64,000 nt of DNA from a virus. Made by a program: the position numbers and the translations under genes. Below, in pieces: positions 2,812-42,910 of the stretch (its first letter is position 1; every line of letters starts with the position of its first letter). The stretch covers positions 1-64,000 of the IMG/VR virus record IMGVR_UViG_3300037587_000358, one strand, 5' to 3'. Under the pieces are notes generated by a model. It did no database searches, was not told the origin of the DNA, and worked only from the letters and a program-made list of their open reading frames with translations.

Positions 2812-2820
2812 GGAGGAATT

Positions 2821-3951
2821 ATGGCAGGAGCAAAAGCAGCATCAGAAGAAAAAGCAGAACAAGAATTGCCTCCGCACGCAGCCGGGCGTGAAGTGCTAAG
2901 CTACGTGCAGCGCTTAGAAAAAGAGGCAGACGAGGACTTCGCCGCAGTTCATGGCATTGACCCTGAAAAGGAAAAAATCGACGATGACAAGAAGGGCGTC
3001 GAAGGATCCGAGAAAAAGGCAGAGGGCGAAGAGCCAGAGAAAGTCGTCGATAAAGAGCCAGAGGATAAGCAGCCGGAAGGCAAGGATAAAGTTGCCGAAG
3101 GCGATGGTAAAGTTGCCGAAGGCGATGACGACTTAACCAAGGGCCTGAGTACTGAGAATGCCCAAAAGCGTATTAGCTCTGCTCAGAGCAAAATGCATGA
3201 TTCCAATGCCAGGGCAACCACGGCAGAGGGAGAGCGCGATAGATTAAAGGAGCAGAACGAGGCTCTTCAAAAGAAGCTGGACACCGTACCGGAAGCCCAG
3301 GCCGCTGCCGAGCCTGGCAAGGAACCGGAAAAGAAAGTAGCTTCAAAGGCGGACGAAGAAGACGACCTTAAAGCCAGCATGGAAGAGCTAAACCAGGAGT
3401 ATCCGGAAATTGCAAAGCCTATGCTTAAGATGATGGCCAGGCAAGAAATTGAGAACAAAAAGCTTTCAGACCAAGTGGCGACACTTGTGGAGAAGGAAGA
3501 AACCCGCACTGCGGAAGCCGTGACGGTGAAAGAGAATACTCACGTTAAGGCTATCTCGGATGCACATAAAGACTACAAAGAGATTTCAGAAGAGCCTTTG
3601 CTTGATGACTGGATTGAAAGCCTCCCGGCAATTGAAAGAGCCGGAGCACGGGCGATCAAAAAAGCCGGTTCATCTACGGAGGTAATTGAGTTGTTGACGT
3701 CGTTTAAGAAGGCTAATGGTTATGAACTTCCTGCTGATTCAAAGGAAGATATTCCTGCGAAAAAAAGCAATTCGAAGATCGAAAAAGCCAAGGCTAAAGC
3801 AAATCCGTCCTTTAATAAGTCTAAGGACGTGAATATTCAGGATGGACAGGTAGAGTTTACAAGGCAGGAGATTGATGCTATGTCGCCAGCCGAATTCGCA
3901 GAAAAGGAACCAGCTATTGATTTAGCTATGTCCAAAGGCTTAGTTCGCTAA
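2821..3951 (+). CDS. Scaffolding protein (probable)
   Basis: A 376-residue, very acidic, lysine/glutamate-rich protein placed between portal and coat genes. Residues 50-110 are low complexity with short repeats (KVAEGDGKVAEGDD), and residues 130-240 look like coiled coil. The C-terminus is basic and then helical (ARQEID--SPAEFAEKEPAIDLA), as in scaffolds that bind coat protein by a small basic helix domain. An AAGGAGG site precedes the start. The call rests on position and composition. Confidence 0.7.
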   Translation: MAGAKAASEEKAEQELPPHAAGREVLSYVQRLEKEADEDFAAVHGIDPEKEKIDDDKKGVEGSEKKAEGEEPEKVVDKEPEDKQPEGKDKVAEGDGKVAEGDDDLTKGLSTENAQKRISSAQSKMHDSNARATTAEGERDRLKEQNEALQKKLDTVPEAQAAAEPGKEPEKKVASKADEEDDLKASMEELNQEYPEIAKPMLKMMARQEIENKKLSDQVATLVEKEETRTAEAVTVKENTHVKAISDAHKDYKEISEEPLLDDWIESLPAIERAGARAIKKAGSSTEVIELLTSFKKANGYELPADSKEDIPAKKSNSKIEKAKAKANPSFNKSKDVNIQDGQVEFTRQEIDAMSPAEFAEKEPAIDLAMSKGLVR

Positions 3952-11407: not shown

Positions 11408-12592
11408 ATGAATCTGATTATCCAGGGAGATGATAAACGGAAAGCCAAGAAATGGATACAGTTTGCAAAAAACAAGCTGCGTCAGATTAAAACCTTTACG
11501 CCTGGGCCGATGCTTATAAATGAGTATTACACTCCGGCTTCGGGTATCTTGGTGCATATCAAGGCTGTTAATGGCATTGATACTATAAGGATAGAGACTG
11601 AGGGAGGTAAATACATGTGTGACTTCCCTGTAGTTGACAGATATCCTATTCCTCACTCAGACTTCCAGTTAAGATGTCCGGTGCGGCCAAAAGGAGTAGA
11701 TGAATTCCTAAGAATAGGCTTTTTGTCAAGATCGAATAATATCAATGATCCTTCTATGGGCGGGGATTGGGATACTTATACCTGGGATTTCGGAGATGGT
11801 AATTTTGACACTGGTGCTTCTGTCTTCCATGAGTACGACGAACCCGGAGAGTACACAGTGAGTCTGACAGTCGCAAAAGACATTGTTGAGACTTTTATAT
11901 CTGGAAACAGTGCAGGCGGAGAGCGCAAAGAAGGCGGAGACGACACGATCTTATCCCCTTATCTTAAGGCCAACTCCGCTGTGGCGTATGCTAATTACCA
12001 AGCCAGTGCTCCTGGTATTTTCAACAATAGCTATGAATGGATAGGCAGGGCCTCAAACAAAGGCACATATGTAGGTATTAATTGGCTAGAGGATATTAGC
12101 TTTTCGTATACGTCTCAGAATGTATCATGGAACTTTGACTTAACATCTGTAGATGTAAATGCGATTGTAACCGTTTATATGAATTTGTTTTTACAAGATC
12201 AAGTATGCAATACTCCTGCCCATGGAGATGCTTGTTATACAAGTAATGCCGGACAAAGCGCAGTGGTTTCTTCTGCCGGAGGAAGTGGCACTCCTGGTAT
12301 AGATATAAATCCTATAAACATGGGAGATATATCAGGGAGCATAGGAGGAATGCAAAATGTAACCTTTACAGATACAGGCGGCAATTCTCACTTTGTCGTG
12401 CCTACGCCTGGCACATGGCCAGAGCCAAACAGGAACGCCCATTTTACTCAACTCGGAGTATATGGAAGCGATCCATGGGCAATAGCATCGGAGCCAACGT
12501 CGTCTCTAAAGACAACAAAAGTAATAAAAGTTTATACTGGCCGACGAGGACATAAAAGAAGTTTCCAAGTTGGAGACTCAGTGCATACATAA
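11408..12592 (+). CDS. PKD-domain structural protein
   Basis: A 394-residue protein. Residues about 115-157 are a classic PKD Ig-like domain: DTYTWDFGDGNFDTG, then FHEYDEPGEYTVSLTV. PKD domains on virions usually bind surface polysaccharide or protein. The N-terminal 100 residues include a small beta module. The C-terminal half is asparagine/glycine-rich and ends basic (KTTKVIKVYTGRRGHKRSF). It sits between small structural genes and the propeller-like proteins, suggesting a receptor-facing tail component. Confidence 0.75.
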   Translation: MNLIIQGDDKRKAKKWIQFAKNKLRQIKTFTPGPMLINEYYTPASGILVHIKAVNGIDTIRIETEGGKYMCDFPVVDRYPIPHSDFQLRCPVRPKGVDEFLRIGFLSRSNNINDPSMGGDWDTYTWDFGDGNFDTGASVFHEYDEPGEYTVSLTVAKDIVETFISGNSAGGERKEGGDDTILSPYLKANSAVAYANYQASAPGIFNNSYEWIGRASNKGTYVGINWLEDISFSYTSQNVSWNFDLTSVDVNAIVTVYMNLFLQDQVCNTPAHGDACYTSNAGQSAVVSSAGGSGTPGIDINPINMGDISGSIGGMQNVTFTDTGGNSHFVVPTPGTWPEPNRNAHFTQLGVYGSDPWAIASEPTSSLKTTKVIKVYTGRRGHKRSFQVGDSVHT

Positions 12593-20497: not shown

Positions 20498-23400
20498 ATG
20501 GGACGATTGCTCGATGAATTCAATAAGGAATTATCAACAAGACAGAACGAGCCAGGGTTTAACAAAGAAGCATTTAAAACAGAGTTCCTCACGTCGCGAG
20601 GACACACACCAAAACAACAGCCGGGAAGAGGATTGCCTGAGTCACGAGGCGTAGTAGCCGACATTGCATCATCAGTTGCAGGCGGTGTCACCGATGCCGC
20701 AGAGATGTGGGCAAGGGCTATCAGGGCGTTTGACCCAAAAGGCGGCAATGACGTAGTAAGGGATTTTGCCACCAAGGGAATAGATGCAATCCAAGGCTTT
20801 GTAGACAGACATCCATTCCTTAAGCCATCCAAAGAAGCTGAGTCTGGTTTCAGACGCGCGCTTACAGAAGGCACAAGATCATTCGTACAGTCAGCCAGTG
20901 CAGTCATTCCTGGATTAGTTGCCAGTGCCGCAGTTCCTATAGCAGCTCCATTCGTTGGTGCGGCAGGCGGAGCCGTGGTATTTGGGGCAGCAGAGAAAGA
21001 CAGGTTCCAGGAAGAGGTAGAAGACTTCATATCAAGTAATAATCTTACCGAGTCCCAGGCCGCAGACCTTCGAGAGAAGGGAGATTCGCAGGCAATTAAA
21101 TCAGCTCTTGTTGAAGGCGGCTTTGAACTTGCAGCCAATACCTTGCAGGTAATTACGCTGGGATTATTCAAGCCATTCAAAGGTGCTGCCAAAGGCGCGG
21201 TTAAAACAACATTCAAGAGCTTGTTTGACGCACCATCCGGAAGCGTAGCAGTCAGAGCAGCAAAGGCATACGGAAAGACAGCCGTTACGGAAGTGGCAAC
21301 GGAAACCGCACAGGAGGCATTGGAGACTAAATTCAGGAGAGACATAGGTATTACCGACATGTCTTCATTGGATGCCGCCGTAAGCGTCATAGCTCCTACA
21401 CTGGTCACGTCATTACTATTCCTTGGCTCAGCAAAGGGCGTTAATTCTTTAGATCGGAGAAGGATAAGGAAGGGACTGGAAGAAGCCGTTGATATTAGCG
21501 GTAAGCCAGCAAGTGCTAAGAAAAGGAAAAAGGCTGTTGATGCAGCCGTTGCAGTTTTTGGCAAGAAGAACAAGGAGCAGGCCGAGAAGATCAGAGAAAG
21601 CGCTTATGCCTTCATTGACTCCGGTGCAAGCATTGATCTTGAGACAGACTTCGGAGTCCTTACTTTTGCAGGACAAATGGCGAAGGACTTAAATAGCGGT
21701 GCCCTTAATGTCCACGACATGGAGAAGTTTGCACAGGGAATTCAAAGCGAAAACTCAGCAGTAAGCGCAGAGCTTTTAAAGATAGCCACTAGCTATAAAA
21801 TACAAAACAATATACCAGACCTTGGAGAGGTAGAGCAGTCCGGCGGAGAGCAAGACCTAGCCGACACAATGCTGAACCCAGCCAAGGATGTAGACCTTGA
21901 GGCCGTTGCCGCTGAGGAAGATGACATAGCGGATTCGGAGACCGTAGATGATCCAGCCGTAGCAGAGAAGGCCGTTGACGATGCGCTGGAAGGTAAGCAG
22001 CCCGGCCTTAATGAAGACATTCCGGTTTTATCAAATGCTGAGCTGGAAGCAGAATTGGTATCTCTCAGAGAAAACTTTCCATCACAAGAGCCTCTTTTGG
22101 GAGAAATACAGCAAGAGCGCATTGATACAATAAATGACGAGCTGGGAGAGCGTGAAGGCGAAGCGGCTGTAAAGGAAGAACGCGAAAGAGTCATGGCGGA
22201 GATATCAGAGCCAAAGGTACCAGAGGCGCTTGAACCAAGGGTTACCGAGTTTGTATCACCGGAGGCCGTAAAGGAACGCCAGAAAGCACAGAGAGAAGGC
22301 TTGATTGAGCCTGGCGTAAAGCTAAAGCCAGCAGAGAAGAAGAAGTTCCTGGAAGACCTTAAGGCGCTGCAAGAAGACGTAGCCAAAACACCAGAAGGCG
22401 AAACTATTGAAGTTGAACAAGTGGCACCTCAGGGTGTTGTCGACAAGATCAGACAGGAGATCGGGGAAGATGCTACTCCGGAACAATTCGAGGCATTAAT
22501 AGCTGGCCTTGAAGCGACGATTGCCGAGGAAGCAGCGAAGGAGATAGAGGGAATACCTACAGCAGAGGCCGTCGAGGCTGGCGAAGTGCCTGTTGTGACT
22601 ACAGGAGAGGCGGCCACTACTGCAAAGGCTAAGGTAGATGTTGCTGCCGAACAAACCGATCCGGCCCCAACAGAGGCCCAGATCGAGGCTGGCAATGCAA
22701 AGAAAGGCCACGCAAACGTACAAGGATTGGACATCTCTATTGAAACCGCAGAAGGCCAGGAAAGATCAGGTACGGATTTATCAGGTAAGCCATGGACTGT
22801 GACCATGAAGAGTCACTATGGCTATATCAAAGGTACTGAAGGCCGTGATAAAGAGCACTTAGATGCATTCATTGGCAAGAATCCAGGTAGTGAAAACGTA
22901 TTCGTAGTAAACCAAATCAATCCAGAATCCGGCGCATTCGACGAGCATAAGGTAATGCTTGGTTTCGACACAGAGGAAGCAGCGAGAGCCGGATATTTTG
23001 AGAACTATGCTAAGGGCTGGAAGGGATTAAAAAGTATTGTACCTATGTCTATGATTGAATTCAAAGCATGGATTAAAGGCGATACAACCAAAGAGCTTAA
23101 GGCAGTCGTCAAACCAGAGAGAGTGGAACCGGAAGTGGAAAAGGAATTCCCTCCGGTTCCCACCGAACCAACCGCAGTACAGAAGGAAGCCGACATTACT
23201 TCCGATGAAGAGCTTGATGTTTTACTGGCAGATATCCAGCCAGAGACTAAAAAGAAACGACCGGTTTCTGTTACTGAAAAGAAAGAAGGCAAGAAGCCAA
23301 AGGCCACAGTCTCGGAACTTAAAGAGAAGACCGCAGGAGACATCCTTTCAGAGGCTTCTAAGGCTGGAGTGAAGGGAATCGACAGCGCAATCAAAGGAGT

Positions 23401-26400
23401 ATTTGAGCTGTTCGGTGGCACTTCGATAAAGACATTTCCTCCTACTCTTGACAAAGAGACTTATGCAAAGGCTAAGCCTCATTTTGAGGCAGCCTTCACA
23501 GAGTTCGGCAATGCAGGCAAAAGCCTGAAAGAATTCCTACAGTTCATGGTGAATAACTTCGGCAATGGTATTAAGCCATACCTTAAATTATTCGTACAGG
23601 AACAGAGAGAGGTAGTAGAAGAAGAGCCAGAAGCCAAGGAAGTAGAAGAGGCTAAGCCTGTTGATGTTGGCGAGAAAAAAGAAAAGCCAGTTAAGAAGGA
23701 GAAGCCGAAAAAACAGAAGCCAGTAGAGGTGAAGAGAATAAGGCTCAAGGATGTTGGAGAGGAAGTTCCGGGCAAGAGATCACAGAAGGATAACTTCGAG
23801 AATATTCAGGAGCAGCATAAAGAACTTGAGACGGGCAATACAAATAAAGACCTTAATAAAATATTGAACCGTGCGGTAAGGTCTAAGCTTTGGAAGATCG
23901 AAAAAGAAGACAGGCTAAACGCTACACCTGGAACCACCAGATACTTAAAGGCCGTCAGGGGCGGTGCCATGGGAGTTAATTCCTATGTAGCGAGTAAGCT
24001 GGGCGGAGTCTTCGGAAATGCGAAAGACCGTATTGAAGAGTTTGCAGGCATAGAAGATTTGCCGGGCGACAAAAAAGGATACAATGAGATATCTAAATGG
24101 GTGGCTAAGTATGAAAACGCTCTCCAAATATTAAACTCAGCTACGGAATCAGCCAACACAGTACAAGAGGCACATGATAACATCGTCACGCTGGTAGCAA
24201 AAACAGTATCCGAGAATACCAAGAACACCCTATTTAACCTGAGCGAGGAAGGCGAAGCCATCATGGATATCTTTCCATGGGGAGAAGCAATGGCAGTGTT
24301 CAGGCCTCAGTCGTTCATAGAGGAAGAGCTAAAGGATAAGCCAGACCCGAAGGACTTGAGAAGGCAAAAGATAGCCTTATCGGAAATAGAAAGGTCTAAT
24401 CTCCCTAACCATAGGCAGGACAATCCAAATCCAACAGCACAGGACTTCATTGATCAGTTCGGTTTCAGGGGCGCAGAGTTCGGGGAGTATGTGGATTCAG
24501 TCTCAGGCCGCAGGCATGTCAATCATGCCTGGGATGCGTTTCATGACCTAACAAATCTGCTGGGCGTGCCGTTAAAAGCATCGGCCATGAAGGTAAGTCG
24601 CTCAGGTTTCCTGCATGGAACTGGCGAGAGTAAGGTAGGCGGCCAGGTAACACAGGGACAGACATTGGCTATGGCTTTTGGCAGCAGAGGCAGAGGAAGG
24701 CATTCTGCGCATTACGAGCCATTAAATCATCTTATCAATATGACCAAGAATAACGGAGACGGCTCGCTGTCTCATGAATGGGCACATAGCCTTGATAGCA
24801 CCTTGTCCTTATCCCCTAAAGGCCGGGATGCAATTAACGATGTCATCAGGGCTTTGAACACACGGTATGATATTGAGCGAGCCAGAGCAGAGGTTGAAGA
24901 AATTCTTACAGGCAACTCCAGGTGGACAAAACAACGTATTGGCCGGACTCCTATTGAGGTTGCGAAAGAGTTCTTGGAATTGAAATGGAAGGCTTACGTC
25001 GCCACGAGTACCAACTTTTCAAAGAAATCTGACCTCCTTGGAGATTATTGGGCTAGAAACGAAGAGAAGTTTGCAAGAGCTTTTGAGGCATTTGTTTATG
25101 ACTCCCTCGAAGGCTCAAGTCCTTACCTCGTGTCTGATTGGGTGAATGGAGACACTACCAAGGAAGAAAACGGATACAGGAGCAACCCGTATCCAGCCGG
25201 AGAAGAGAGGGAACAGTTCAACAGAATCTTTAAGCATTTCATGGATGGTATTGAATGGACAGAAGACGGCATTCCCTCCATGAAGGAAGGCTATGAACTT
25301 GTATCCGAGAAAGAAGAAAAGCTGGCACAGGAAGCCCTTGGTACTATTAAAGGCAAGCTGGAAGAGATGTTTGCTGCCATGCATCAAGGCAAGGCGTCTA
25401 AGGATGGATTGTGGTGGTATGAGTACACAGCGACTAAACGAGGGGCATTGATGCAACCAGACGATATCAACGCTCATGATGATAGCCTTGGAGAAAACGG
25501 GGCAGTGGCATATACAGAAGCGTTGCTGCCTGATATGATTTTATATTACAAGCTAAAAGCAGTTACCCACGACAAGGACGAAAATAAAGTTTATTTAAAG
25601 GAGGCCGGAGATGGCGGACAAATTGAATCGAGAGACCAGCTTGACACGGCTGGGCTTGATGGCGAAAGCTCATTGGAAGAAGTGGAGGCCGAAGATGGTG
25701 AAAGAGCTGATACGGGGACAGGTATTACACGCCGCCCTGTTGAACGCGCAGGAGAAGAGTCTGACGGCCTTGGTGAACGAGGCACGAGCGGGCCTGCCAG
25801 TGCATTTGGCGATGGAGAAAGTTCTTCCGATGTGGATACGGCTGCCGCCGGAATCGGAGGTAACGACATTAAGCCAGGACAGGATGCCGTTCTTGGAGGC
25901 GGAAACTACAGAATCACAGAATCCGATAGAGTCGGTCAGGGTACCCTCAACGAAAAGTTTTCCAATAATATCTCAGCAATAAGAACCTTGCAGCAGATTG
26001 AAAGAGAAGAGCGTCACGCAACCAGAGAAGAACAGGCAGTTCTTGTTAAGTATGTGGGATGGGGAGGCATGTCACAGGCCTTCAATGAGTTCGGAGATAA
26101 AGGCTGGACAGATAAGTTTGAGATACTTAAGCAAACGCTTAACGACGAAGAGTTTGCAGCGGCAAGGACATCTACGCTGAGCGCATTCTACACTTCGCCG
26201 GAAGTAGTTACAAAGATGTACGACGCTTTGCAGAAGTTTGGATTCAAAGGAGGCCGGGTATTAGAGCCTGCGGTAGGCACCGGAAACTTCTTTGGGCTAT
26301 TGCCAGAATCGATAGCAAGTGCCACGCAGCTTGCAGGCGTTGAAATGGACAATATATCTTCCAGGATAGCAAGGCAGTTATACCAAAGAGCCAATGTGTT

Positions 26401-29400
26401 TAATTCTCCTTATGAGAAGTCAACACTTCCAAGGAACTTCTACGATGTTGCAATATCAAATGTTCCATTTGAAGACGTTATTCCATTTGACAGAACATTC
26501 AACAAGAAAAGATTTAAGCTACATGACTATTACTTCAACAAAACGCTGGCCCTTGTCAGGCCGGGCGGTATCGTCGCATTCATTACCAGTGCTGGAACCA
26601 TGGACAAGGTTAGCGAAGAAGCCAGGAAAGAATTGTCTAAAAATGCTGACCTTATCGGGGCTATCAGGCTCCCGGATACAGCCTTTAAAGATGCTGGCAC
26701 CAGAGTAACGGCAGACATTATCTTCCTCAGAAGGAAGGGCGGTACTGGAAAAGAGATTAAGGCCCAGAAATGGACAGAGGTGACGAGCTGGACGCAAGAA
26801 AAGCCAGATGGCGGCTCATTTAATATAAATGAATACTTTGCCAAGAATCCAGAGATGATGCTGGGGCAAATGAGCAATACTGGAAGATGGGAAGACTCTC
26901 AAAACCTTATGTCAGATGGCAGGAATATAGAAGAAGCCTTGGCAGAGGCCGTTGGCAAGCTTCCTTCCGATATATATACAGAGCTTGAAAATGTAATAGA
27001 GATCGATATCGCCGACCTCATACCTGATGAAGGAGTATTCTCTGACGGCGACTTCTTTGAGGAAGGCGGGAAGGTATTCATATTTGTTGCAGGCGAAGAA
27101 GCCATACTTTACGAAGAAAAGACTCCGCACCAAAAGAGAAAAGGACAGGTCATACGAGGGTTTATTAAAATAAGAGCGGCGCGCCGGGCAATGCTTAAGG
27201 CCCAGGCAAAGGAAGCATCTGAAAAAATACAGAAGCCGTTAACTGCGAAGCTTAATAAGGAATACGATGCCTTTGTAAAGAAGTTCGGATTCCTTAATCT
27301 ACCAGAGAACTTACGAGCGTTTATAGATGACCCGGAAGCACCGAGGATACTTGCGCTTGAGAACTGGAGCGACGAAACCGGAGAGGCGACGAAGAGTGAT
27401 ATATTCTCCAAGAAATTCATAGAAAACCTGAGGCCTGTTACCAGTGTGAAAAAGCCGCAAGACGGCATACCTCATTCATTAAATGCGTTGGGAAGGATAG
27501 ATATACCTTTCATCGCCAAACTTGCAGGGATCTCAGAAGACGAGGTCATTGCAGAGCTACAAGGTGAGATATGGAATGACCCGGAGAAGGGCTGGGTAGT
27601 ATCGGATGAATATTTATCCGGTAATATCAAAGAAAAGATCGCATTGGCCGAGCAGGCTGCAAAATCCGATGGCACGTTTGCGAAGAATGTGGACGCGCTG
27701 ACTCCGTTAATACCAGAAGACTTGCCCCCGTCAGCCATCAGGGCCAACCTTGGTGCGCCCTGGATAGAGCCAGGAGACGTTCAGCACTTCATAAGAGACT
27801 TGGTGCCACAGGGACATAGCATTCACGTAGACTATGTTGCCGAGCTTGGATTATGGAAGCTCGCTTCAAGGGGTGGCGGTAGCGAGACCGGAGCAAAGAG
27901 GCTTTTTAAGAATGCTAAAGAATCCGTGGCAGCTACTGCGACATGGGGCACGAGCAGAAAGAATTTCTTTGAGTTACTTGAGAGATACATTCTTAATGGG
28001 AGCGCCCAAGGTCTGACCGTATTTGATAAAATCCCTGGAACTGACCAGAAAATACTTAACACAAAAGAGACCGAAGCGGCACAGGCGAAGTTAGAAGCTA
28101 TCAAGGAAAAGTTTTCCAAGTGGCTATGGGAAGACGATGACAGGCTTAGTAAATATGTCCGTAAATATAATGACGTATACAACGGTACAGTCGAAAGAAA
28201 ATTTGATGGAAGTCATCTTACATTCCCTGGACAAGTACCGAATGATATTATTGAACTAACAAGCCATCAGAAGAATGCGGTATGGAGAGCTATAAGCACT
28301 GGATTCAATACTTACTTTGCCCATGAAGTCGGTACGGGTAAGACGTTTGCCATGGCAGCTACTATCATGGAAGCAAAGAGGCTGGGCCTGAAAAAGAAAC
28401 CTCTTATGCTGGGCATCAAGGCAAATGTAGACGCACTGGCCGAAGACTTTGCAAAGCTGTACCCAACTGCAAGAATACTTAGGATGGATGTATCTGCCAA
28501 TGCATTGAAGAGGAAGATACAACTTAACAGAATCGCCAATAATGAATGGGATGCAGTTATAATAAGCCATGATTCCTTTAAGAACATACAGCTCAGCGCA
28601 GAAGGACAGACCGAGGCAGTTGAGGAAGAGCTTGGCAACTTAAGGCTTTCGTTAGCACTGGCACAGGAGTCAGGAGCGGCGGCGTTTACAGTCAAGGCAA
28701 TTGAGCTAAGGATGAAGAGTCTTAAGTCCGACCTGGACAAGCGTATCGGCGCACTGGAAGTGTCTAAGATCGACCTGGATTTTGAAGAGCTGGGAGTCGA
28801 TTTAGTCGTAGTTGACGAAGCCCATATATTCAAAAACATTCCTTATGCTACAAAGCTTGACGGTATTGTTGGGGTGAGTGGAGATGGCTCCGGCAAGGCC
28901 TTCGATTTACATATGAAGACACGTTGGATAAACGAGAAGTTTGGAGGCGGTATTATACTTGCTTCCGGTACTCCTATTACTAACAGCGTGTCGGAGATAT
29001 ACAATATCGGAAGATATTTAAATCCTCAGACATTGAGAGACAAAGGCATCCATACATTCGACGCATGGGCGTCAGCGTTTGGAAACATCACACAGACAGC
29101 GGAGTTCGCGCCAGAGGGCGGCGGATACAGAATGGTCAGGAAATTCAAAGAGTTCTTTAATATTCCTGAGCTAAGATCAATTGTCCGAGAAGTTGTGGAC
29201 GTCATCGCTGCCAAGGACTTAGGTCTTAAAGTACCGGAAATACTTTCCGGAAAACCTGTTCCTGTTGTTATTCCTCAAAACGAAATGGTAGAGGCTCTTA
29301 GCCAGGAAATGCTGATAAGGGCAAAGGATATCAGGAGCGGCGGTATAAATAAACAGCCAAGGCATCCAGATAAAACAGATATCATGTTCTCTATTATAAG

Positions 29401-32400
29401 CGATGGCCGTAACGGTGCTATTGATATGAGGTTGGTAGACCCGGAATTGCCAGATCATCCGGACACAAAGGCCAATCATTCAGTAAGGAATGTATTCCAG
29501 CTATGGAAAGCTTCAGAGAATATCAAAGGCACCCAGCTTGTATTTGCAGACAGGGGAGTTCCCAAGCTGGTTCCTAAGTTAGATATCAATGGCAGCGTCA
29601 TACAGAAGCTAGACAAAGACGGTAATCCTAGATTTTCGACAAGGACGATAATAGACAAGGAAACAGGGGCGGAAGAAAAAATCACAAAGCCTCTCCTTGA
29701 AATGAGGCCAGCGTTTAATGTTTATGATGACGTCAAGAATAAGCTTATTGCTATGGGTATTCCTGAGAAAGAAATTGCTTTTCCAAGGGACGTTAAAGGG
29801 AACAAGATAAAGAAGAAGAAATTATTCAATCAAGTAAACGCCGGGGATGTCAGGATATTGATTGGCTCTACGGCTGATATGGGCACTGGCGTGAACGTGC
29901 AGGAGCGTGGAGTCGGAATACACAACCTGGATACTGAGTGGACATTTGAGAGACTTGAACAGCGAAGGGGCCGATTTGTAAGGCAGGGCAACATATTATA
30001 TGATATCAAGTTTCCAGTGGCGGTCTTTAACTACATGACCGAAGGCACCGTGGACGCTTTCATGTGGGATAAGGTAGCAAACAAAAAGATAACTACCGAG
30101 GTCGTACTACAAAGCAATAGCCAGCAAAGGGAAATTGAAGACGTCAGCCAGGAAAGTGCAAGTGCCCAGGAAATGATGGCATTTGCCAGCGGAGATCCGA
30201 GGTTCCTGCACAAGATAGAGCTGGAAGCCGAAGTTCGTAAGCTCAATGCCATAAGGGGTAACTGGATAGATGAACAGTACAGACTCAAGAGAGAGCTGGG
30301 AGCTATCCCTGGTGTTATCGAGGCCATGAATACTTCTATTGCCAATAAGAAGAAAGCACAGGATTGGTTTGAGAATATCAATGCTGTTAAAATCGGCGAT
30401 GTACTTTATGATCTTAAGCGCCATTCCAGTGAATTGATCAAAAGAATGTCCGAGGTTCTCAGTCCTAAAAACGCAAAAATGGCAAGGAAGAGCGTGAACA
30501 GAATTCCTATTGCTACCTTTGGCCATGCCCGTACGGAAGAGGTTGAGACCGTGGAAGAAGTAACTACGGTTAAAACCGTTAAGGATAAATCAATAGAGGT
30601 AAAAGAGAAGAAGAAAAAAATCAATAAGGTATTGCGCTGGGAAGGTGACAACGACATTCCTGTCTACGTAAGAAATCCTTTCACGCTGACAGCGGAAAAG
30701 ATAGGCATTAAAGACGTTGACATACTGAAGCTAGGCACCAAGAGCAAGTATGGTGAATGGGAAATAACTGCGAGTGCTGGCCTTGCAAGATTGCTATCTA
30801 ATACGAAAGCCTCTATCGAAAGGGAGATGAAGAGCAGTCAGGAGCTTATAGAGAAAAAAGAGAAGCAGCGCAATGATATCAATGAGGAAATTGCTAAACC
30901 ATTCGAGCAGGAAGAAGAGCATACATCTAAGACCGAAGAGTTAGCACAACTCACAGCAGAGCTGGGACAAATACTCCAACAGCAGCAAGAAGAACAAGGG
31001 CGAATAGATCCAGACCTGGAAAGGTTCAAGTCTCAGGCCGTAGATGTTGGAGAAATGGACATACCAGAGGAAGATGTATCCTTGTCCGTCGAGAAGAAGT
31101 CTGACATCAAAGCTAAAGAAAGTGAGTATTGGGCGGTTACCGGCCAGATAGCACAGGCTATTGTTGATAAGGATGACGTGGCGAAAGAGAAGCTTGAAAA
31201 GGTTCGTTCCAAAATAGAAAGACAGCTCTCAAAGGCGCAGGACGTCAAGGCAAAGGTTCCCGTCACAAAGAAGGCTGTTCCTGCTGGAGTATTGGCCGAC
31301 ATATACACTGACCTCTTTAGAGAGGCAGAGAAGATACTTGGATACGGCAAGGTCAAGCTAGAAGTGGTGACACAGGAAGCCCTCAAGAAAGATCCCGATG
31401 TTATCAAGGCAGCGGAAGAGCGAGGAATCTCCAAAGAGGAATTAATAGAAGAGTACAACGTAAAAGGTGCTTATCTGGGTGTGACTGTTGATGGAGTTGC
31501 GACCAAGGGAGTTATTAAAGTAGCTGCCGATGGTTTCAGGAGCATCATTGACATGGACGCAACTGTCAGGCATGAAATATTCCACGGAGTATTTAAAAGG
31601 CTTCTTAATAATAAGGACAGGAACATAATTCTTTCAAGGTATAAGACAGAAGAGAAGGCGGCGGATATGTTTGCCTCTCATATTGCGCAGGAAGGAAAGT
31701 TAATCTCTACTTCTATTAAGTCCATATTCAACAGGATGGCAGATTTCTTTGAAAGCCTTGGAAATCTACTCAAGGGCAGGGGTTTTAAGAATGCCGGGGA
31801 TGTATTCGGAGCCGCAGCAGCCGGAGAGCTGGCCGACAAAGCCACTACCATGGCAGCGGTGGGAGCCAATGTAAGCCTCTCAATAGAAAAGGGAGTCCCG
31901 GAGGAAGACCTTAACGCCGAGCATGATGCCAGTAAGGAGCAGTTCGAGAAAGTCCTTAAGAGTTCAAACCCATTGCTTCGTCAATACGCAGCAGGACTGC
32001 AAAACGTCGTGTCGATGAATCCGGCCAATGTCCAGATGAACAAGTCTCATACCAAAGTGGTAGATGAAATATATACTGGCACTCGAAATTCTGATATCAA
32101 ATTCACTGAAAGAGTCTTCGGCCTTCCATGGTTCCTGGCTAAGAAGTTTGTGGAGTGGAAGCAGGCACTTGGTATCGAGCTTAAGAGAAGTGAAGATAGA
32201 AACCTTATTATGAGTGAGTTCAATAAAAAGGTGGGCGAGGTCAGGAAAGGCGAGAAAGATTTACATGAGATCATGGCCCTTAAACCCAACGAGGAAGAGA
32301 ATGTATTGCTGGTAATTTATGAAGGCGATGCCCTCAATAAAGAGTTCACTAATGACGAGTTAAACCACTCTATTGCAATCACAGAACTGAACAAATTAGA

Positions 32401-34753
32401 CCCGGGAAAATTTTCCAAGAAAAACATAAAGCTAAGTCCTTCTCAGATAAACGCTTACAAGGCGTGGCAGGCGTCCACGAAAAAAATGAGAGAAAGAGTG
32501 GTCGAGGCCATAGACAAGTTGACCTATCTTCCATTTGAGAATAAGCCCTGGGCAGGGAAGCTAAAAGCTACTGTCAAACGCCATGAGGTACAGAGGGCAA
32601 GGCAGAGAGAAGTCGAGATCGAGCAGGGCAAACGTACTGATTTCTCAGAGCTGCAAGAAAGCGAGATACCAGAGCGCATGAAGGATGCAGACAAAAAGGA
32701 ATTCGTAGATGCCTTTAATAAGGTACTGCCAAAACAGATAAGGATATCGACGCTGAGACGTCAAATGGGGGAGATAAAAGGATATGCACCGAGAGTCAGA
32801 GAAGGTAAGTATGTAGTCAAGGCATATGACTCACAAGGCAACACGCTGTGGCACGAACGTACTGAGAAGGAAAAAGAAACTAAGGGCATGATATCATCAA
32901 TGATCAAGCGCCTTGAAGCTGAGGGGCTTGATCATGGCCAGGATTTCACCGTCAGGAAAGAGATTAGCGACAAGATATCTGAGTTCATCTTCGATCAGGT
33001 ACAGGCGGTGTCCGTGGAAAGGTTTGTCAATAAAGCTATTAACCAAGCTAAGACCAACGATAAGATTTCAGAAGCCGACGTGGCAGCAGTCAGTGAGGAA
33101 ATGATCACCCTGCTTACTAACGAGTTCAAGCAGAGAGGCTTTGCTTCTGCCATGATGAAGAGACGTAGAGGATTCCCTATCGGTGGCTACAAGATTGAGA
33201 ACATTAAGAGGCGATATGCTGGGTACGTCAGCGGGGCCAGCGGATACATGACTAAGCAGATTGCGGCCTTCGAGTATGCTTCTGTGCTCAGGACTATAGA
33301 CATCAATACTAAGCCAGACCTATACGAAGACATTGCCAGATATTCCGGCGACATGTTGCGCAACTCAACAAGGCTTGACAGGATATCCGGCAGAGTCAGA
33401 ACCGCAGCATTCGTGTGGTACCTTGCTGGCCAGCTCAAGAGTCCGATTGTAAACTTTACTCAGAATTGGATACTCGGTATTCCGTTACTGGAAAAGGCAA
33501 CTGGTAAAGGTGCCAAAGGTATCTATCATACAGCCATGGCCGACGTGGCGAGAAGAAAATACACTGACCTGGACAGAAGGTTCTTGAAGGAAATGCAGGA
33601 AAGAGGCATTACCGGAGACCAGCTTACGCAAGAGATTACTGGCTCAACAGTGGCGGAAGCAGGGAAGGCATACGAGACAGTCATCAAAGTCTTAGCGACC
33701 CCGTTCAGCTTGTCAGAAATATTTAACCGAAAGGTTTCAGGACTGGCAAGGTTTAGGGCGGCTGTAGCAGCCGGAGACGACTATCGTACTGCCTTCGATA
33801 AATCCCGGGACTTTATCATCGACGTCCATTTCCTCTATGGAAAGCTTAATGCTCCGAGTGGGGCCAGAGGCGGTACGCCAGGTGCAGCGATTCTTAGAAC
33901 ATCATTGACGTTCAGGAACTATACCTTTAACTTCATACACGCTATGAAGGGAATGCTTAGCGAAGGCGACTTTAAAACAGTAGCCAAGGCCATGACGTAT
34001 ATGGCATTACTTGGTGGAGCCAGCGCTCTTCCATTCTTAGACGGGTTCTTGGACATGCTGGAAAGGATTACCGGGACACCATTCAGGAAGAATGCGAAGA
34101 AAGACCTTGAAAGCGTTGGCGGAGAGATACTGGCAAATGTTGGAGTGCAGGGGTTGCCAGCTCTTTTAGGTGTGGATATCGGCGGTTCTTTGAGAATCCA
34201 CTTTCCGGATGTTACAGATCCAGGAAAGCTAATAGAAGAGTCTGTATTCGGAGTGTATGAAGGATTGGCAATGAAAGGAGTCAACTCGATCAAGGCAGCG
34301 AGCACAGGACAATACGCCAGGGCCTTTGAATTGTTATCGCCTACGTTCATCGAGAGGCCGCTCAAGGCTATTCGTCAGCGTGAGGCAGGTCTTACCACGA
34401 CAAGAGGCAAGATCATCAAGGAAAGCAGCGGTGAGCCGATTATACCGACTATACCAGAGACCATTGCTACGGCATTGTCGTTCAGGCCGTCACGAATTGC
34501 AAGATTGTCGGATAACTACCGTCAATTTGGAAACGTGGCAAGGTTCTATTCTGATTGGAGAGGCGATATCTATACTGCGTTCAGGCTCGGCAAGACATTT
34601 GAAGCCAGACAGAAAGTGCTACAGGAGGTCGTGGAATACAACAGAGCAGCCATCGACCAAGGCGGAGCAGTATCTTTAATAAGGGCGGCACAGCTCAAGG
34701 GAGCCTTGAGAGACAGGCCTGATAAGAGGTTCCGAGCATTTGGCGGGCTATGA
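20498..34753 (+). CDS. Giant polyvalent protein: zincins, DNA methyltransferase, SF2 helicase (DarB-like)
   Basis: One uninterrupted frame of 4751 residues. In order: an N-terminal region with hydrophobic Ala/Val-rich segments (about 130-165); a pyrophosphatase-like 'InPase' domain (about 735-865, GYIKGTEGRDKEHLDAFIG); an LPD1-like module with zincin motif HEWAHSLD (about 1427); an acidic linker (about 1700-1805); an N6-adenine methyltransferase (EPAVGTGNFFG about 1923; SNVPF about 1987); an SF2 helicase (HEVGTGKT about 2609, DEAH about 2773, QRRGRFVRQGN about 3154); a second zincin (HEIFH about 3692); and a long helical, partly hydrophobic C-terminus. Polyvalent and DarB proteins are packaged and injected to block restriction, which fits its place after the tail genes. 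Confidence 0.88.
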   Translation: MGRLLDEFNKELSTRQNEPGFNKEAFKTEFLTSRGHTPKQQPGRGLPESRGVVADIASSVAGGVTDAAEMWARAIRAFDPKGGNDVVRDFATKGIDAIQGFVDRHPFLKPSKEAESGFRRALTEGTRSFVQSASAVIPGLVASAAVPIAAPFVGAAGGAVVFGAAEKDRFQEEVEDFISSNNLTESQAADLREKGDSQAIKSALVEGGFELAANTLQVITLGLFKPFKGAAKGAVKTTFKSLFDAPSGSVAVRAAKAYGKTAVTEVATETAQEALETKFRRDIGITDMSSLDAAVSVIAPTLVTSLLFLGSAKGVNSLDRRRIRKGLEEAVDISGKPASAKKRKKAVDAAVAVFGKKNKEQAEKIRESAYAFIDSGASIDLETDFGVLTFAGQMAKDLNSGALNVHDMEKFAQGIQSENSAVSAELLKIATSYKIQNNIPDLGEVEQSGGEQDLADTMLNPAKDVDLEAVAAEEDDIADSETVDDPAVAEKAVDDALEGKQPGLNEDIPVLSNAELEAELVSLRENFPSQEPLLGEIQQERIDTINDELGEREGEAAVKEERERVMAEISEPKVPEALEPRVTEFVSPEAVKERQKAQREGLIEPGVKLKPAEKKKFLEDLKALQEDVAKTPEGETIEVEQVAPQGVVDKIRQEIGEDATPEQFEALIAGLEATIAEEAAKEIEGIPTAEAVEAGEVPVVTTGEAATTAKAKVDVAAEQTDPAPTEAQIEAGNAKKGHANVQGLDISIETAEGQERSGTDLSGKPWTVTMKSHYGYIKGTEGRDKEHLDAFIGKNPGSENVFVVNQINPESGAFDEHKVMLGFDTEEAARAGYFENYAKGWKGLKSIVPMSMIEFKAWIKGDTTKELKAVVKPERVEPEVEKEFPPVPTEPTAVQKEADITSDEELDVLLADIQPETKKKRPVSVTEKKEGKKPKATVSELKEKTAGDILSEASKAGVKGIDSAIKGVFELFGGTSIKTFPPTLDKETYAKAKPHFEAAFTEFGNAGKSLKEFLQFMVNNFGNGIKPYLKLFVQEQREVVEEEPEAKEVEEAKPVDVGEKKEKPVKKEKPKKQKPVEVKRIRLKDVGEEVPGKRSQKDNFENIQEQHKELETGNTNKDLNKILNRAVRSKLWKIEKEDRLNATPGTTRYLKAVRGGAMGVNSYVASKLGGVFGNAKDRIEEFAGIEDLPGDKKGYNEISKWVAKYENALQILNSATESANTVQEAHDNIVTLVAKTVSENTKNTLFNLSEEGEAIMDIFPWGEAMAVFRPQSFIEEELKDKPDPKDLRRQKIALSEIERSNLPNHRQDNPNPTAQDFIDQFGFRGAEFGEYVDSVSGRRHVNHAWDAFHDLTNLLGVPLKASAMKVSRSGFLHGTGESKVGGQVTQGQTLAMAFGSRGRGRHSAHYEPLNHLINMTKNNGDGSLSHEWAHSLDSTLSLSPKGRDAINDVIRALNTRYDIERARAEVEEILTGNSRWTKQRIGRTPIEVAKEFLELKWKAYVATSTNFSKKSDLLGDYWARNEEKFARAFEAFVYDSLEGSSPYLVSDWVNGDTTKEENGYRSNPYPAGEEREQFNRIFKHFMDGIEWTEDGIPSMKEGYELVSEKEEKLAQEALGTIKGKLEEMFAAMHQGKASKDGLWWYEYTATKRGALMQPDDINAHDDSLGENGAVAYTEALLPDMILYYKLKAVTHDKDENKVYLKEAGDGGQIESRDQLDTAGLDGESSLEEVEAEDGERADTGTGITRRPVERAGEESDGLGERGTSGPASAFGDGESSSDVDTAAAGIGGNDIKPGQDAVLGGGNYRITESDRVGQGTLNEKFSNNISAIRTLQQIEREERHATREEQAVLVKYVGWGGMSQAFNEFGDKGWTDKFEILKQTLNDEEFAAARTSTLSAFYTSPEVVTKMYDALQKFGFKGGRVLEPAVGTGNFFGLLPESIASATQLAGVEMDNISSRIARQLYQRANVFNSPYEKSTLPRNFYDVAISNVPFEDVIPFDRTFNKKRFKLHDYYFNKTLALVRPGGIVAFITSAGTMDKVSEEARKELSKNADLIGAIRLPDTAFKDAGTRVTADIIFLRRKGGTGKEIKAQKWTEVTSWTQEKPDGGSFNINEYFAKNPEMMLGQMSNTGRWEDSQNLMSDGRNIEEALAEAVGKLPSDIYTELENVIEIDIADLIPDEGVFSDGDFFEEGGKVFIFVAGEEAILYEEKTPHQKRKGQVIRGFIKIRAARRAMLKAQAKEASEKIQKPLTAKLNKEYDAFVKKFGFLNLPENLRAFIDDPEAPRILALENWSDETGEATKSDIFSKKFIENLRPVTSVKKPQDGIPHSLNALGRIDIPFIAKLAGISEDEVIAELQGEIWNDPEKGWVVSDEYLSGNIKEKIALAEQAAKSDGTFAKNVDALTPLIPEDLPPSAIRANLGAPWIEPGDVQHFIRDLVPQGHSIHVDYVAELGLWKLASRGGGSETGAKRLFKNAKESVAATATWGTSRKNFFELLERYILNGSAQGLTVFDKIPGTDQKILNTKETEAAQAKLEAIKEKFSKWLWEDDDRLSKYVRKYNDVYNGTVERKFDGSHLTFPGQVPNDIIELTSHQKNAVWRAISTGFNTYFAHEVGTGKTFAMAATIMEAKRLGLKKKPLMLGIKANVDALAEDFAKLYPTARILRMDVSANALKRKIQLNRIANNEWDAVIISHDSFKNIQLSAEGQTEAVEEELGNLRLSLALAQESGAAAFTVKAIELRMKSLKSDLDKRIGALEVSKIDLDFEELGVDLVVVDEAHIFKNIPYATKLDGIVGVSGDGSGKAFDLHMKTRWINEKFGGGIILASGTPITNSVSEIYNIGRYLNPQTLRDKGIHTFDAWASAFGNITQTAEFAPEGGGYRMVRKFKEFFNIPELRSIVREVVDVIAAKDLGLKVPEILSGKPVPVVIPQNEMVEALSQEMLIRAKDIRSGGINKQPRHPDKTDIMFSIISDGRNGAIDMRLVDPELPDHPDTKANHSVRNVFQLWKASENIKGTQLVFADRGVPKLVPKLDINGSVIQKLDKDGNPRFSTRTIIDKETGAEEKITKPLLEMRPAFNVYDDVKNKLIAMGIPEKEIAFPRDVKGNKIKKKKLFNQVNAGDVRILIGSTADMGTGVNVQERGVGIHNLDTEWTFERLEQRRGRFVRQGNILYDIKFPVAVFNYMTEGTVDAFMWDKVANKKITTEVVLQSNSQQREIEDVSQESASAQEMMAFASGDPRFLHKIELEAEVRKLNAIRGNWIDEQYRLKRELGAIPGVIEAMNTSIANKKKAQDWFENINAVKIGDVLYDLKRHSSELIKRMSEVLSPKNAKMARKSVNRIPIATFGHARTEEVETVEEVTTVKTVKDKSIEVKEKKKKINKVLRWEGDNDIPVYVRNPFTLTAEKIGIKDVDILKLGTKSKYGEWEITASAGLARLLSNTKASIEREMKSSQELIEKKEKQRNDINEEIAKPFEQEEEHTSKTEELAQLTAELGQILQQQQEEQGRIDPDLERFKSQAVDVGEMDIPEEDVSLSVEKKSDIKAKESEYWAVTGQIAQAIVDKDDVAKEKLEKVRSKIERQLSKAQDVKAKVPVTKKAVPAGVLADIYTDLFREAEKILGYGKVKLEVVTQEALKKDPDVIKAAEERGISKEELIEEYNVKGAYLGVTVDGVATKGVIKVAADGFRSIIDMDATVRHEIFHGVFKRLLNNKDRNIILSRYKTEEKAADMFASHIAQEGKLISTSIKSIFNRMADFFESLGNLLKGRGFKNAGDVFGAAAAGELADKATTMAAVGANVSLSIEKGVPEEDLNAEHDASKEQFEKVLKSSNPLLRQYAAGLQNVVSMNPANVQMNKSHTKVVDEIYTGTRNSDIKFTERVFGLPWFLAKKFVEWKQALGIELKRSEDRNLIMSEFNKKVGEVRKGEKDLHEIMALKPNEEENVLLVIYEGDALNKEFTNDELNHSIAITELNKLDPGKFSKKNIKLSPSQINAYKAWQASTKKMRERVVEAIDKLTYLPFENKPWAGKLKATVKRHEVQRARQREVEIEQGKRTDFSELQESEIPERMKDADKKEFVDAFNKVLPKQIRISTLRRQMGEIKGYAPRVREGKYVVKAYDSQGNTLWHERTEKEKETKGMISSMIKRLEAEGLDHGQDFTVRKEISDKISEFIFDQVQAVSVERFVNKAINQAKTNDKISEADVAAVSEEMITLLTNEFKQRGFASAMMKRRRGFPIGGYKIENIKRRYAGYVSGASGYMTKQIAAFEYASVLRTIDINTKPDLYEDIARYSGDMLRNSTRLDRISGRVRTAAFVWYLAGQLKSPIVNFTQNWILGIPLLEKATGKGAKGIYHTAMADVARRKYTDLDRRFLKEMQERGITGDQLTQEITGSTVAEAGKAYETVIKVLATPFSLSEIFNRKVSGLARFRAAVAAGDDYRTAFDKSRDFIIDVHFLYGKLNAPSGARGGTPGAAILRTSLTFRNYTFNFIHAMKGMLSEGDFKTVAKAMTYMALLGGASALPFLDGFLDMLERITGTPFRKNAKKDLESVGGEILANVGVQGLPALLGVDIGGSLRIHFPDVTDPGKLIEESVFGVYEGLAMKGVNSIKAASTGQYARAFELLSPTFIERPLKAIRQREAGLTTTRGKIIKESSGEPIIPTIPETIATALSFRPSRIARLSDNYRQFGNVARFYSDWRGDIYTAFRLGKTFEARQKVLQEVVEYNRAAIDQGGAVSLIRAAQLKGALRDRPDKRFRAFGGL
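25611..25982 (+). CDS. Nested small gene in another frame inside the giant ORF
   Basis: A 123-residue frame starts at an ATG six bases after a perfect AAAGGAGG site, inside the giant gene. Its first 85 residues (HWKKWRPKMVKELIRG, then ALLNAQEKS, then LPMWIRLPPE) look like a folded, widespread small phage/mobile-element protein, with a pattern I remember as W--PKM--EL---G-L--AL--A. In the giant frame the same bases encode only an acidic, low-complexity linker (DGGQIESRD, EEVEAEDGERADTG). The nested frame therefore carries the protein-like signal here. The last 35 residues after LPPESE may be run-out. Function unknown. Confidence 0.6.
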   Translation: MADKLNRETSLTRLGLMAKAHWKKWRPKMVKELIRGQVLHAALLNAQEKSLTALVNEARAGLPVHLAMEKVLPMWIRLPPESEVTTLSQDRMPFLEAETTESQNPIESVRVPSTKSFPIISQQ

Positions 34754-40225: not shown

Positions 40226-42910
40226 ATGACAGCAGTGATAAAAAGAACTACCTGCCCAAAATGCTCAGCTACCAGAAAGAATAAAACAGAAAAGTGTTGT
40301 ACGGTATTTTCTAATGGCAATGAATTCTGCCATCATTGTGCTTGGGATTCGAGTAGAGAAGGAAGACCTAAAGTCGAATATAAGAAGCCTTCTCAGAAGC
40401 TACCGCAAGGGAAACCAGATGAGTTCAGGGCATTCCTCAAGGCCCGTGGTATCACTGAAGAGGTTGCGGCAAGGAATAAAATAAGCTGGAATGGTAAAGA
40501 AATCTTATTCCCGTACTTACTTGGCGATCAGATCGTAAATATCAAATACAGAACAAAGGACAAAAAGTTCCGTCAGGAAGCTGGCGCTATGAAAATCTTC
40601 TACGGCCTTAATGACATCGTTGGCGAAAAAGATGTCTATGTGGTCGAAGGTGAACTTGATAAGCTTTCCTGTGAAGTAGCTGGCTATGAAAATGTGGTTT
40701 CAACTCCTGACGGCGCCCCTTCATTAGAGGCAAAGACGTACACTACAAAGTTTAAGTTCATAGATGACTGCGAGCATTTGTTCGCAGCAGCAGAGCGAGT
40801 CATTATCGCAGTAGATAACGACCTGCCAGGCAAGAAGTTAGAATCGGAGCTGGTAAGAAGGTTCGGCCCAGAGCGGTGCTGGCTGGTTAAGTGGCCTCTT
40901 GACTGCAAGGATGCCAACGAAGTATTGCTCAAGCACGGCATGGTAAAACTCATGGAATGCCTTGAGAATCCTCGGCAGGGACCCATTGACGGTGTGTTTA
41001 CATCGGGAGACTTCTTTGATGCCTTGGACTCATTGTATGAAGAAGGTCTTCAAGGTGGCGTAAGTACGGGCTGGTTAGAAATAGATAAATACTATACCAT
41101 AAGACCTGGAGAGATGACGATTATTACAGGAATTCCGAGCCACGGTAAAGCATTAAGTATATACGAATACATACCATCTGAAAATGGATGGTTGGTTATG
41201 GGTGATATAAAGACAGGAGACAGGGTTTTTGACGAAAAAGGAAAGCTTTGCAATGTTGTTGGCGTTACCGAGACTATGATTGGTCGCCCGTGTTATAAAA
41301 TTACCTTTGATGACGGTACTGAGGTTGTGTGTGATAAAAACCATGAGTGGTTGACAATATCAGAAGCGGCCAGAAGAAGCGCTTTACAGCAGAAAGCCAA
41401 AAGAAATGGAAGGGATAAGGCATTGCCCAGAGGAACAGACCAGAGATATAAAAGAACTTTTCCTTCGATAGTTACAACTGGGTACATAAACAAGACAATA
41501 AAATCTCAGGGTAAAAACAACCATCAAGTGTCTTTATGTAAACCTATTCAACGGAAAGAAAAAAACCTCTTAATAGAACCGTATACTCTTGGCGCTTGGC
41601 TTGGAGACGGAACTAGTGCAAATGGGAATATTACGTGCGCAGATATAGATATTATTAAGCGAATTAATTTAGACGGATTTAAAACAACAAAAAATAAAGC
41701 TCCTTTGAGATTTAATATTGTAGGTTTAAAGGTTTTGCTTAGAAAATATGACCTGATAAACAGTAAGCAAATACCGACTATTTACATGAGAGGCTCTGTT
41801 GCGCAAAGATTCGAATTACTAAAAGGATTAATGGATACAGACGGCAGTTGTTCTAAATTAGACAGCCGCTGCGAGTTTGTCAGCACTAATAAACAGCTAG
41901 CTCTCGCTGTCTTAGAATTGGTTTTAGGCTTGGGAATTAAAGCAACCATAATTCCGGGCAAATCAATGTTAAACGGTAAATGCCATGGAGATAAATACAG
42001 GATTTGTTTTAATACAGAAGTGTCTGTATTTCATCTTAAAAGAAAACTTAGCAGGCAGGTACACAAAGGCGATAGAAAGACCAGAAGCCATGCAAGGACA
42101 ATTATTAGCTGTCAACGTGTTTCGTCTGTACCTGTGAAGTGTATACAGGTAGATAGTCCATCAAGGTTGTATTTAGCGACTACAAGCTTTATTCCTACTC
42201 ATAATAGTACGTGGCTGACCGCCTTGATGGTGAACCTAACGCATCAGTTCGGCTGGAAGCATAGCATATTCAGCCCTGAGAATCAGCCATTGCAACGGTA
42301 CATGGGTATTATCGCTGCAATGTATATTGGCAAGCCGTTTGGCAAAGGTTATACCGAGCGCATAAATAGAGACGAACTGGAAAATGCAAAGAAATGGCTG
42401 GACGAGCACTTCTATTTTACCCAGCCAAATGATGACGATTTATGTATCGACAGCTTGCTTGATAAGGCAAGGGAAACAGTGAAGAGATACGGTGTCAACG
42501 CGGTTATTATTGACCCGTGGAACGAGATCGATAGCAAGCGTTCCACGGGAGTAAGTGAAACCGAGCATATCAACCAAAGCCTTGCCAAGGTCAGGAGATT
42601 CGGAAGGCTATACAATGTACATATGTTTATTGTTGCGCATCCTCAGAAGCTACAGAAGGATAAAGACGACAAGTATCCGGCGCCAACAGCTTACGAGATA
42701 AGCGGTAGTGCTCATTGGTATAACAAAGGAGACGGTATAATAGCTGTGTGGAGAGACCCAAAAGACGAAACGAAGCAAGTAGTAATCTATGTGCAGAAGG
42801 TCAGGTTCAGAGAAGTAGGAAAAGTGGGAGAAATTAAACTGGACCATGATGTTGTTACCGGACGCTATTCAGATACCGGATATTTCCAGTCTCACTATAA
42901 AGGGATATAG
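40226..42910 (+). CDS. Primase-helicase (T7 gp4-like) interrupted by an intein
   Basis: 894 residues as encoded and 542 after removing the intein (residues 309-660). Extein order: zinc-binding domain with C10, C13, C35, C38; TOPRIM primase (VVEGELDKL about 139-147; AVDND about 195-199); then a RecA-like helicase whose Walker A (GIPSHGK-ST) is split by the intein. After it come SPENQP, the Walker B-like VIIDPWNEID and the FIVAHPQK motif. It would unwind DNA and prime lagging-strand synthesis. Spliced length is close to T7 gp4. No phage DNA polymerase gene is visible, so host polymerase may be used. Confidence 0.9.
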   Translation: MTAVIKRTTCPKCSATRKNKTEKCCTVFSNGNEFCHHCAWDSSREGRPKVEYKKPSQKLPQGKPDEFRAFLKARGITEEVAARNKISWNGKEILFPYLLGDQIVNIKYRTKDKKFRQEAGAMKIFYGLNDIVGEKDVYVVEGELDKLSCEVAGYENVVSTPDGAPSLEAKTYTTKFKFIDDCEHLFAAAERVIIAVDNDLPGKKLESELVRRFGPERCWLVKWPLDCKDANEVLLKHGMVKLMECLENPRQGPIDGVFTSGDFFDALDSLYEEGLQGGVSTGWLEIDKYYTIRPGEMTIITGIPSHGKALSIYEYIPSENGWLVMGDIKTGDRVFDEKGKLCNVVGVTETMIGRPCYKITFDDGTEVVCDKNHEWLTISEAARRSALQQKAKRNGRDKALPRGTDQRYKRTFPSIVTTGYINKTIKSQGKNNHQVSLCKPIQRKEKNLLIEPYTLGAWLGDGTSANGNITCADIDIIKRINLDGFKTTKNKAPLRFNIVGLKVLLRKYDLINSKQIPTIYMRGSVAQRFELLKGLMDTDGSCSKLDSRCEFVSTNKQLALAVLELVLGLGIKATIIPGKSMLNGKCHGDKYRICFNTEVSVFHLKRKLSRQVHKGDRKTRSHARTIISCQRVSSVPVKCIQVDSPSRLYLATTSFIPTHNSTWLTALMVNLTHQFGWKHSIFSPENQPLQRYMGIIAAMYIGKPFGKGYTERINRDELENAKKWLDEHFYFTQPNDDDLCIDSLLDKARETVKRYGVNAVIIDPWNEIDSKRSTGVSETEHINQSLAKVRRFGRLYNVHMFIVAHPQKLQKDKDDKYPAPTAYEISGSAHWYNKGDGIIAVWRDPKDETKQVVIYVQKVRFREVGKVGEIKLDHDVVTGRYSDTGYFQSHYKGI
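41150..42205 (+). mobile_element. Class 3 intein with LAGLIDADG endonuclease in the helicase Walker A
   Basis: The 352-residue intein begins with Ala309 (ALSIYEYIP) instead of Cys/Ser and ends in His659-Asn660 before Ser661. It has the three marks of class 3 inteins: Trp375 in block B (NHEW), Cys639 in block F (VKCIQVD) and Thr658 before the final HN. In that class the block F Cys is the first nucleophile. Two endonuclease motifs, LGAWLGDG (about 454-461) and LLKGLMDTDG (about 531-540), suggest active homing. Insertion is between Lys and Ser of the P-loop. Confidence 0.88.

Follow-up and report, generated by a model that had tools for sequence, protein, structure and literature searches.

Several kinds of described system come close to the locus considered here. 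In phage lysis, Rz and Rz1 work together, each of them functional. The embedding of Rz1 in Rz, noted for phage JC1 (PMC9144972), places a complete small gene within a larger one, in another frame and with its own start. Another kind comprises the DarB-like polyvalent proteins, whose 2017 survey (Iyer et al. 2017, PMC5512222) mentions neither overlapping genes nor TnpV. Giants of the DarB type are virion proteins: in JC1, 51 unique peptides identified gp69 in virions (PMC9144972), and packaging of P1 DarB involves helpers that include the small Ulx, which aids DarB localisation (PMC9024508). Being small and associated with a DarB protein, Ulx is a possible functional analogue of the protein considered below, but its coding sequence does not overlap darB; Ulx was also considered as a homologue and set aside, there being no sequence match. 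Papers on Atu_ph08 and POI1126 mention no overlapping, nested or embedded genes, and no report of the nested gene was found in the full-text papers searched, a set that covers a minority of subscription papers.

The stretch of viral DNA analysed here (the window; 64,000 nucleotides) comes from a virus record of 65.7 kb. It holds one such giant gene and, within it, a small ORF in the +1 frame. The features that matter to the argument are as follows.

20498–34753, plus strand: gene for a DarB-like polyvalent protein of 4751 residues (phrog_10089, DarB-like antirestriction, 1651 bits)
25560–25903, plus strand: linker of the giant protein, rich in Gly, Glu, Asp and Ser and predicted to be disordered (composition; AlphaFold pLDDT ~25–32; giant-frame omega 1.1–1.5)
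25597–25604, plus strand: Shine-Dalgarno (SD) sequence AAAGGAGG, with a spacer of six bases to the nested ATG
25611–25982, plus strand: predicted nested gene of 123 codons, in frame +1 relative to the giant (+1 homologues, inverted codon-position divergence, omega 0.31)
25611–25862, plus strand: conserved core of the nested protein, ~84 residues (alignments; AlphaFold pLDDT 88.2, pTM 0.73)
25904–26548, plus strand: first part of the methyltransferase domain (NYRITESDRVGQG...), which is the constant 3′ neighbor of the nested gene and served as the anchor of the denominator search described below

The giant is typical of the DarB-like polyvalent proteins surveyed in 2017 in that a methyltransferase, a helicase and further effector domains share one polypeptide. 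Its InPase (residues 726–860), CLCA_X-like zincin region (1303–1435) and LPD1 (1515–1584) are followed by an N6-methyltransferase from residue ~1803, an SNF2/ResIII helicase (~2585–3164) and a C-terminal PLxRFG domain (4095–4718), with family matches to PF18823, PF18796, PF04851, PF00271, NF032893 and phrog_10089. P1 DarB, in contrast, starts at the methyltransferase and has neither linker nor nested ORF. Elsewhere in the window, positions 40226–42910 encode an 894-residue protein with an odd mixture of profile matches, to a primase/helicase at the N terminus, to a terminase large subunit in the middle and to another primase/DnaB-like helicase towards the end.

The best explanation of the nested ORF overall, with a probability of about 0.9, is that a genuine overlapping gene resides in the mRNA of the giant anti-restriction gene. 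The initial annotation, made from the sequence of the window, had noticed a 123-codon ORF inside the giant and an SD sequence six bases before its ATG, and both are borne out: the ATG lies at 25611 and the stop ends at 25982, the frame is +1, and the residues that had been quoted are present. It had also described the giant frame as acidic linker throughout the ORF. This description holds for the ~84-residue core, which overlaps giant residues ~1705–1788 between LPD1 and the methyltransferase, but not for the final ~26 codons (25904–25982), which overlie the start of the methyltransferase domain, so that pure linker lies opposite the core only. The giant's linker is mostly an out-of-frame reading of the nested gene. 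Over the shared bases, order-promoting residues account for 10.9% of the giant frame versus 26.0% of the nested frame, and the giant frame is not folded by AlphaFold. The arrangement resembles Rz1 within Rz but differs in that constraint falls on the nested gene, for which standalone homologues exist, while the host frame encodes a near-neutral linker.

The same nested arrangement recurs in most of the related giant genes examined. A tblastn search of the phage collection with the window's protein gave weak matches (E 0.3–6) to Pavtok, PEp14 and POI1126, each of which falls within a DarB-like giant, shifted +1 from the annotated coding sequence. The Pavtok homologue as query retrieved 21 phage records (E 2e-9 to 2e-54, excluding Pavtok itself) from phages of Erwinia, Klebsiella, Pseudomonas, Agrobacterium, Vibrio, Sinorhizobium, Ochrobactrum and Microcystis. 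The +1 placement inside giants is identical in phages of Erwinia, Klebsiella, Agrobacterium, Vibrio, Ochrobactrum and Microcystis, and the small gene is annotated in no phage record inspected. Alignment-based scans yielded 70 viral and 22 genomic loci of the nested family. At 86 of these 92 loci, stepping back one base from the nested frame gives an open giant frame longer than 1,100 codons, and the third frame is broken by stops. Further scans added more divergent members, all in the +1 frame and directly 5′ of the methyltransferase.

To avoid selection bias, a denominator of 80 loci was picked by the giant's methyltransferase instead of by the nested gene. A match to the nested HMM (E ~1e-3 or better) was found at 61 of the 80, although the training set of the HMM included some of the anchored contigs and this denominator is thus not fully independent. 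All 61 matches have the same strand, lie within the giant in relative frame +1 and precede the methyltransferase anchor by 197–905 nt, and divergent new loci (e.g. L185, L191, L195 and L217) fit the same pattern. At least 10 of the other 19 loci carry divergent +1 ORFs at the nested site; six have a divergent TnpV-like +1 ORF (profile–profile probability of 93.9% for the six as a group), and five have another kind of +1 ORF. For this second kind, comparison of L247 with L200 and with L209 gives the nested codon-position signature in both cases; in L214/L232, a more distant pair, the signature is not clear-cut. Seven of the 80 loci are without a nested ORF, indicating that the methyltransferase-helicase can do without the nested gene, and L210 is ambiguous. 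In Bacteroides phage BKO1-TP3 (L260, ~2660–2990), an apparently unrelated +1 ORF (MDEYTKKVLRLQGHSEKSIAKMELEERIDAACYRHKAETLEAPYTWSEEEWTEIYKEAGM...) occupies the same spot before the methyltransferase.

AlphaFold (nine sequences) models the core of the window's nested protein as five helices. The core, for which the initial annotation had proposed an HMM search as a check, belongs to a conserved family that is remotely TnpV-like, with the core motif HWK..RP...EL...G.L..AL...E in the family alignments; the window's protein itself matches no family model. Searched alone against Pfam, NCBIfam and PHROGs, it gave noise-level matches only (Spc7, 0.0088; phrog_938, 0.11), and it is joined to the family through L136/L143, L142 and profile searches, being 42% identical to the nested protein of L143 and 37% identical to that of L142. 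TnpV (PF14198) of Tn4451-type mobile elements is the closest named family to the nested proteins, which are likewise small and helical and have the same core motif. The PF14198 cut-off of 27 bits is passed by the nested members L108 (35.5 bits) and L137 (30.6 bits), most nested members tested score under it, and the window's protein does not match PF14198 at all. A TnpV gene would be expected beside the mobilisation genes of a transposon or IME; the standalone TnpV gene of L173 adjoins relaxase and MobC genes, whereas the window's gene is nested in a phage giant. On these comparisons, the nested family and TnpV are relatives, although the window's own protein is not classed as TnpV.

Foldseek found nothing significant for the nested protein in the PDB. 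Its best viral fold match is Q8W6J4_2 (probability 1.00, TM 0.83), which we suspect to be PBC5 orf33, with the nested domain fused in frame. No relative was present in the plasmid collection, and a fecal phage match (L006/H7) proved to be an unrelated long ORF. A strongly basic DNA-binding role is disfavored by the net charge of the core, which ranges from −11 to +7 with a median of −5.

The initial annotation had proposed that three once-separate genes were joined and had suggested a search for relatives in which they are apart. Nested-family homologues without a giant are found in L096 (Corticibacter), L097, L104, L105 and L107, in addition to TnpV in L173, and some standalone copies sit in bacterial chromosomes. 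In Pseudidiomarina sediminum (L105, 6974–7762), a nested-type domain forms the N terminus of a 262-residue protein with apparent membrane helices. The methyltransferase-helicase, for its part, occurs without N-terminal fusion in L108, L199 and L230, where its frame opens just 80–370 nt 5′ of the nested gene. The proposal thus stands insofar as the small gene is separate in origin and the giant reads through it as linker; the union was not a one-off, however, as the pairing of the small gene with the 5′ end of the methyltransferase-helicase is widespread and occurs without the zincin too. Because the overlap is also present without any N-terminal module (L108, L199 and L230), it appears to predate the zincin fusion and not to depend on it. 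Many different N-terminal modules are found upstream of the pair; hence the overlap seems tied to the 5′ end of the methyltransferase-helicase, with modules such as the zincin added or lost independently. The nested frame is probably the older of the two, since it is constrained and has standalone relatives.

What the small protein might do can be considered in light of this association. It could be a partner of the methyltransferase-helicase, made from the same mRNA and serving as a folding or packaging chaperone or as a regulator. The small gene accompanies the methyltransferase-helicase irrespective of which N-terminal modules precede it, and on this genomic association a partner role would be the most likely one, although we hold it tentatively and would sooner expect it to fail than to hold. 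A second role, to which we assign the same, less than even, likelihood, is that the small protein is made but acts as a free-standing anti-restriction or host-takeover factor, or as a TnpV-like mobile-element accessory, the giant being a parking place with no binding between the two. TnpV proper adjoins mobilisation genes (L173), and standalone copies without a giant in bacterial chromosomes are consistent with such a factor, whereas the position of the small gene, directly 5′ of the methyltransferase-helicase at most loci and across many N-terminal architectures, argues against it.

Both of these roles presuppose that the small protein is made, and the start signals bear on this point. An SD match of at least four bases precedes 83 of 87 distinct nested starts (95%) compared with 18.6% of 6,720 control ATGs, providing the translation start signals of its own that mark a functional overlapping gene. 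The start codon is ATG at 97 of 105 nested starts. Synthesis of the small protein by internal initiation is predicted from these signals, and we consider it very likely; taken with the purifying selection described below, the conserved SD sequence and start suggest that the nested gene is probably still made. It is improbable that ribosomes instead shift frame from the giant to give an N-terminal-half product ending in the small domain, with no separate protein. The annotation of Sinorhizobium phage PBC5 (L013 and L027) takes the N-terminal half straight on into the nested frame, and phrog_938 ends in the nested domain. However, an ATG or GTG with a well-spaced SD sequence is found at 95% of nested starts, standalone copies begin near the same methionine, and an in-frame stop lies within six codons 5′ of the nested start in 23 of 87 cases (four codons before it in the window), which leaves almost no room to shift. 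PBC5 is, moreover, one old sequence that may contain a frameshift error. The frameshifting of the giant's N-terminal half into the nested frame in PBC5 (L013/L027/L256) could reflect a sequencing error or a real fission, and it accounts for the presence of the nested domain in the final ~100 positions of the PHROG phrog_938, labeled ‘endolysin’.

The third codon position is the most variable in a coding frame. Over 21 pairs, not all of them independent, divergence at giant-frame positions 1, 2 and 3 is 0.25, 0.23 and 0.41 upstream of the nested ORF and 0.08, 0.05 and 0.30 downstream, compared with 0.19, 0.09 and 0.09 inside it. For the window and L002, the corresponding values are 0.15, 0.15 and 0.51 upstream, 0.18, 0.11 and 0.51 downstream, and 0.25, 0.11 and 0.14 inside; in a sliding scan of this pair (2,278 aligned codons, 74 windows), the nested windows alone were flagged. 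The dN/dS comparison in both frames that the initial annotation had put forward agrees. From a simple count of substitution classes rather than a likelihood fit, omega is ~0.31 in the nested frame versus 1.1–1.5 in the giant frame (24 independent pairs), and 0.29 in the nested frame for the window and L002. The nested frame is therefore under purifying selection, as expected of a functional overlapping gene, and the giant frame is near neutral over the nested ORF, indicating that the giant is kept open there while its residues are hardly constrained.

A decaying relic, inserted when the giant was assembled and now out of use, is very improbable. The giant does tolerate the nested sequence as a linker, and a few giants lack the nested ORF, but purifying selection is seen in close pairs, and frame, start, SD sequence and fold have been kept long-term over very divergent giants. 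The inverted codon-position pattern rules out the least probable reading of all, in which the ORF and its SD sequence both arose by chance and are conserved merely because the giant protein is: the giant's +1 frames are often open elsewhere (134, 112 and 105 codons), but inside the nested ORF the giant's wobble position is the least variable and position 1 the most, the flanks showing the reverse, and the difference in omega, the excess of SD sequences over controls (95% versus 19%), the standalone homologues and a nested protein that folds where the linker does not all count against it. Shuffling the giant's synonymous codons kept a +1 run of 123 codons in only 40 of 20,000 trials, a test that is modest on its own given how often the +1 frames are open (longest runs 134, 127, 112 and 105). 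The decisive evidence that the nested ORF is not due to chance is comparative: a frame kept in dozens of relatives, the SD sequence and a pattern of codon-position divergence typical of coding frames. On this evidence, we regard it as close to certain that the nested ORF is a real, conserved overlapping gene selected for its protein.

Other giants show similar patterns at other places. In the same giants of rhizobial phages, a second +1 ORF (L011, 14498–14860; MAQQAAPIRGFHGDPPATFDTLQKWKDWHASVSQW...) shows the inverted codon-position pattern, and its sequence is conserved at the corresponding place in L017–L021, L023, L024 and L087; it is probably another nested gene. In the giant of Erwinia phage Pavtok (L003), positions 3432–3791 and 11937–12161 show the inverted pattern and contain +1 ORFs (e.g. 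...SRLLKYLLQNRMITNQQYVEAWKVVSALKRNPQTPLPDELMEVWEKMH).

With a genuine overlapping gene as the preferred reading, the giant mRNA would hold a +1 gene with its own SD sequence and start, just 5′ of the methyltransferase-helicase part. Ribosomes initiating at the nested start would produce a small, five-helix, remotely TnpV-like protein, whereas those coming from the giant's own ATG would read the same bases in the other frame, yielding a linker that is flexible and under little constraint. That linker was probably overprinted on the small gene as the methyltransferase-helicase frame extended through it. A broader version, which we find plausible at somewhat less than even odds, is that the overlap is ancient and built into most phage methyltransferase-helicase polyvalent genes, that the TnpV-like protein is an obligate partner of an injected giant, that the linker arose de novo by overprinting, and that more small genes may lie in other linkers.

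Overall, the giants have been catalogued domain by domain, and a conserved family seems to have escaped notice through its position inside them in another frame. If made, its members would join the anti-restriction systems of phages as a new candidate component. The locus would also represent an unusually clean case of overprinting, in the less expected direction, the disordered linker having been recruited from the other frame of an old, folded gene. The locus also serves as a warning that the low-complexity linkers of other giant phage proteins may hide genes.
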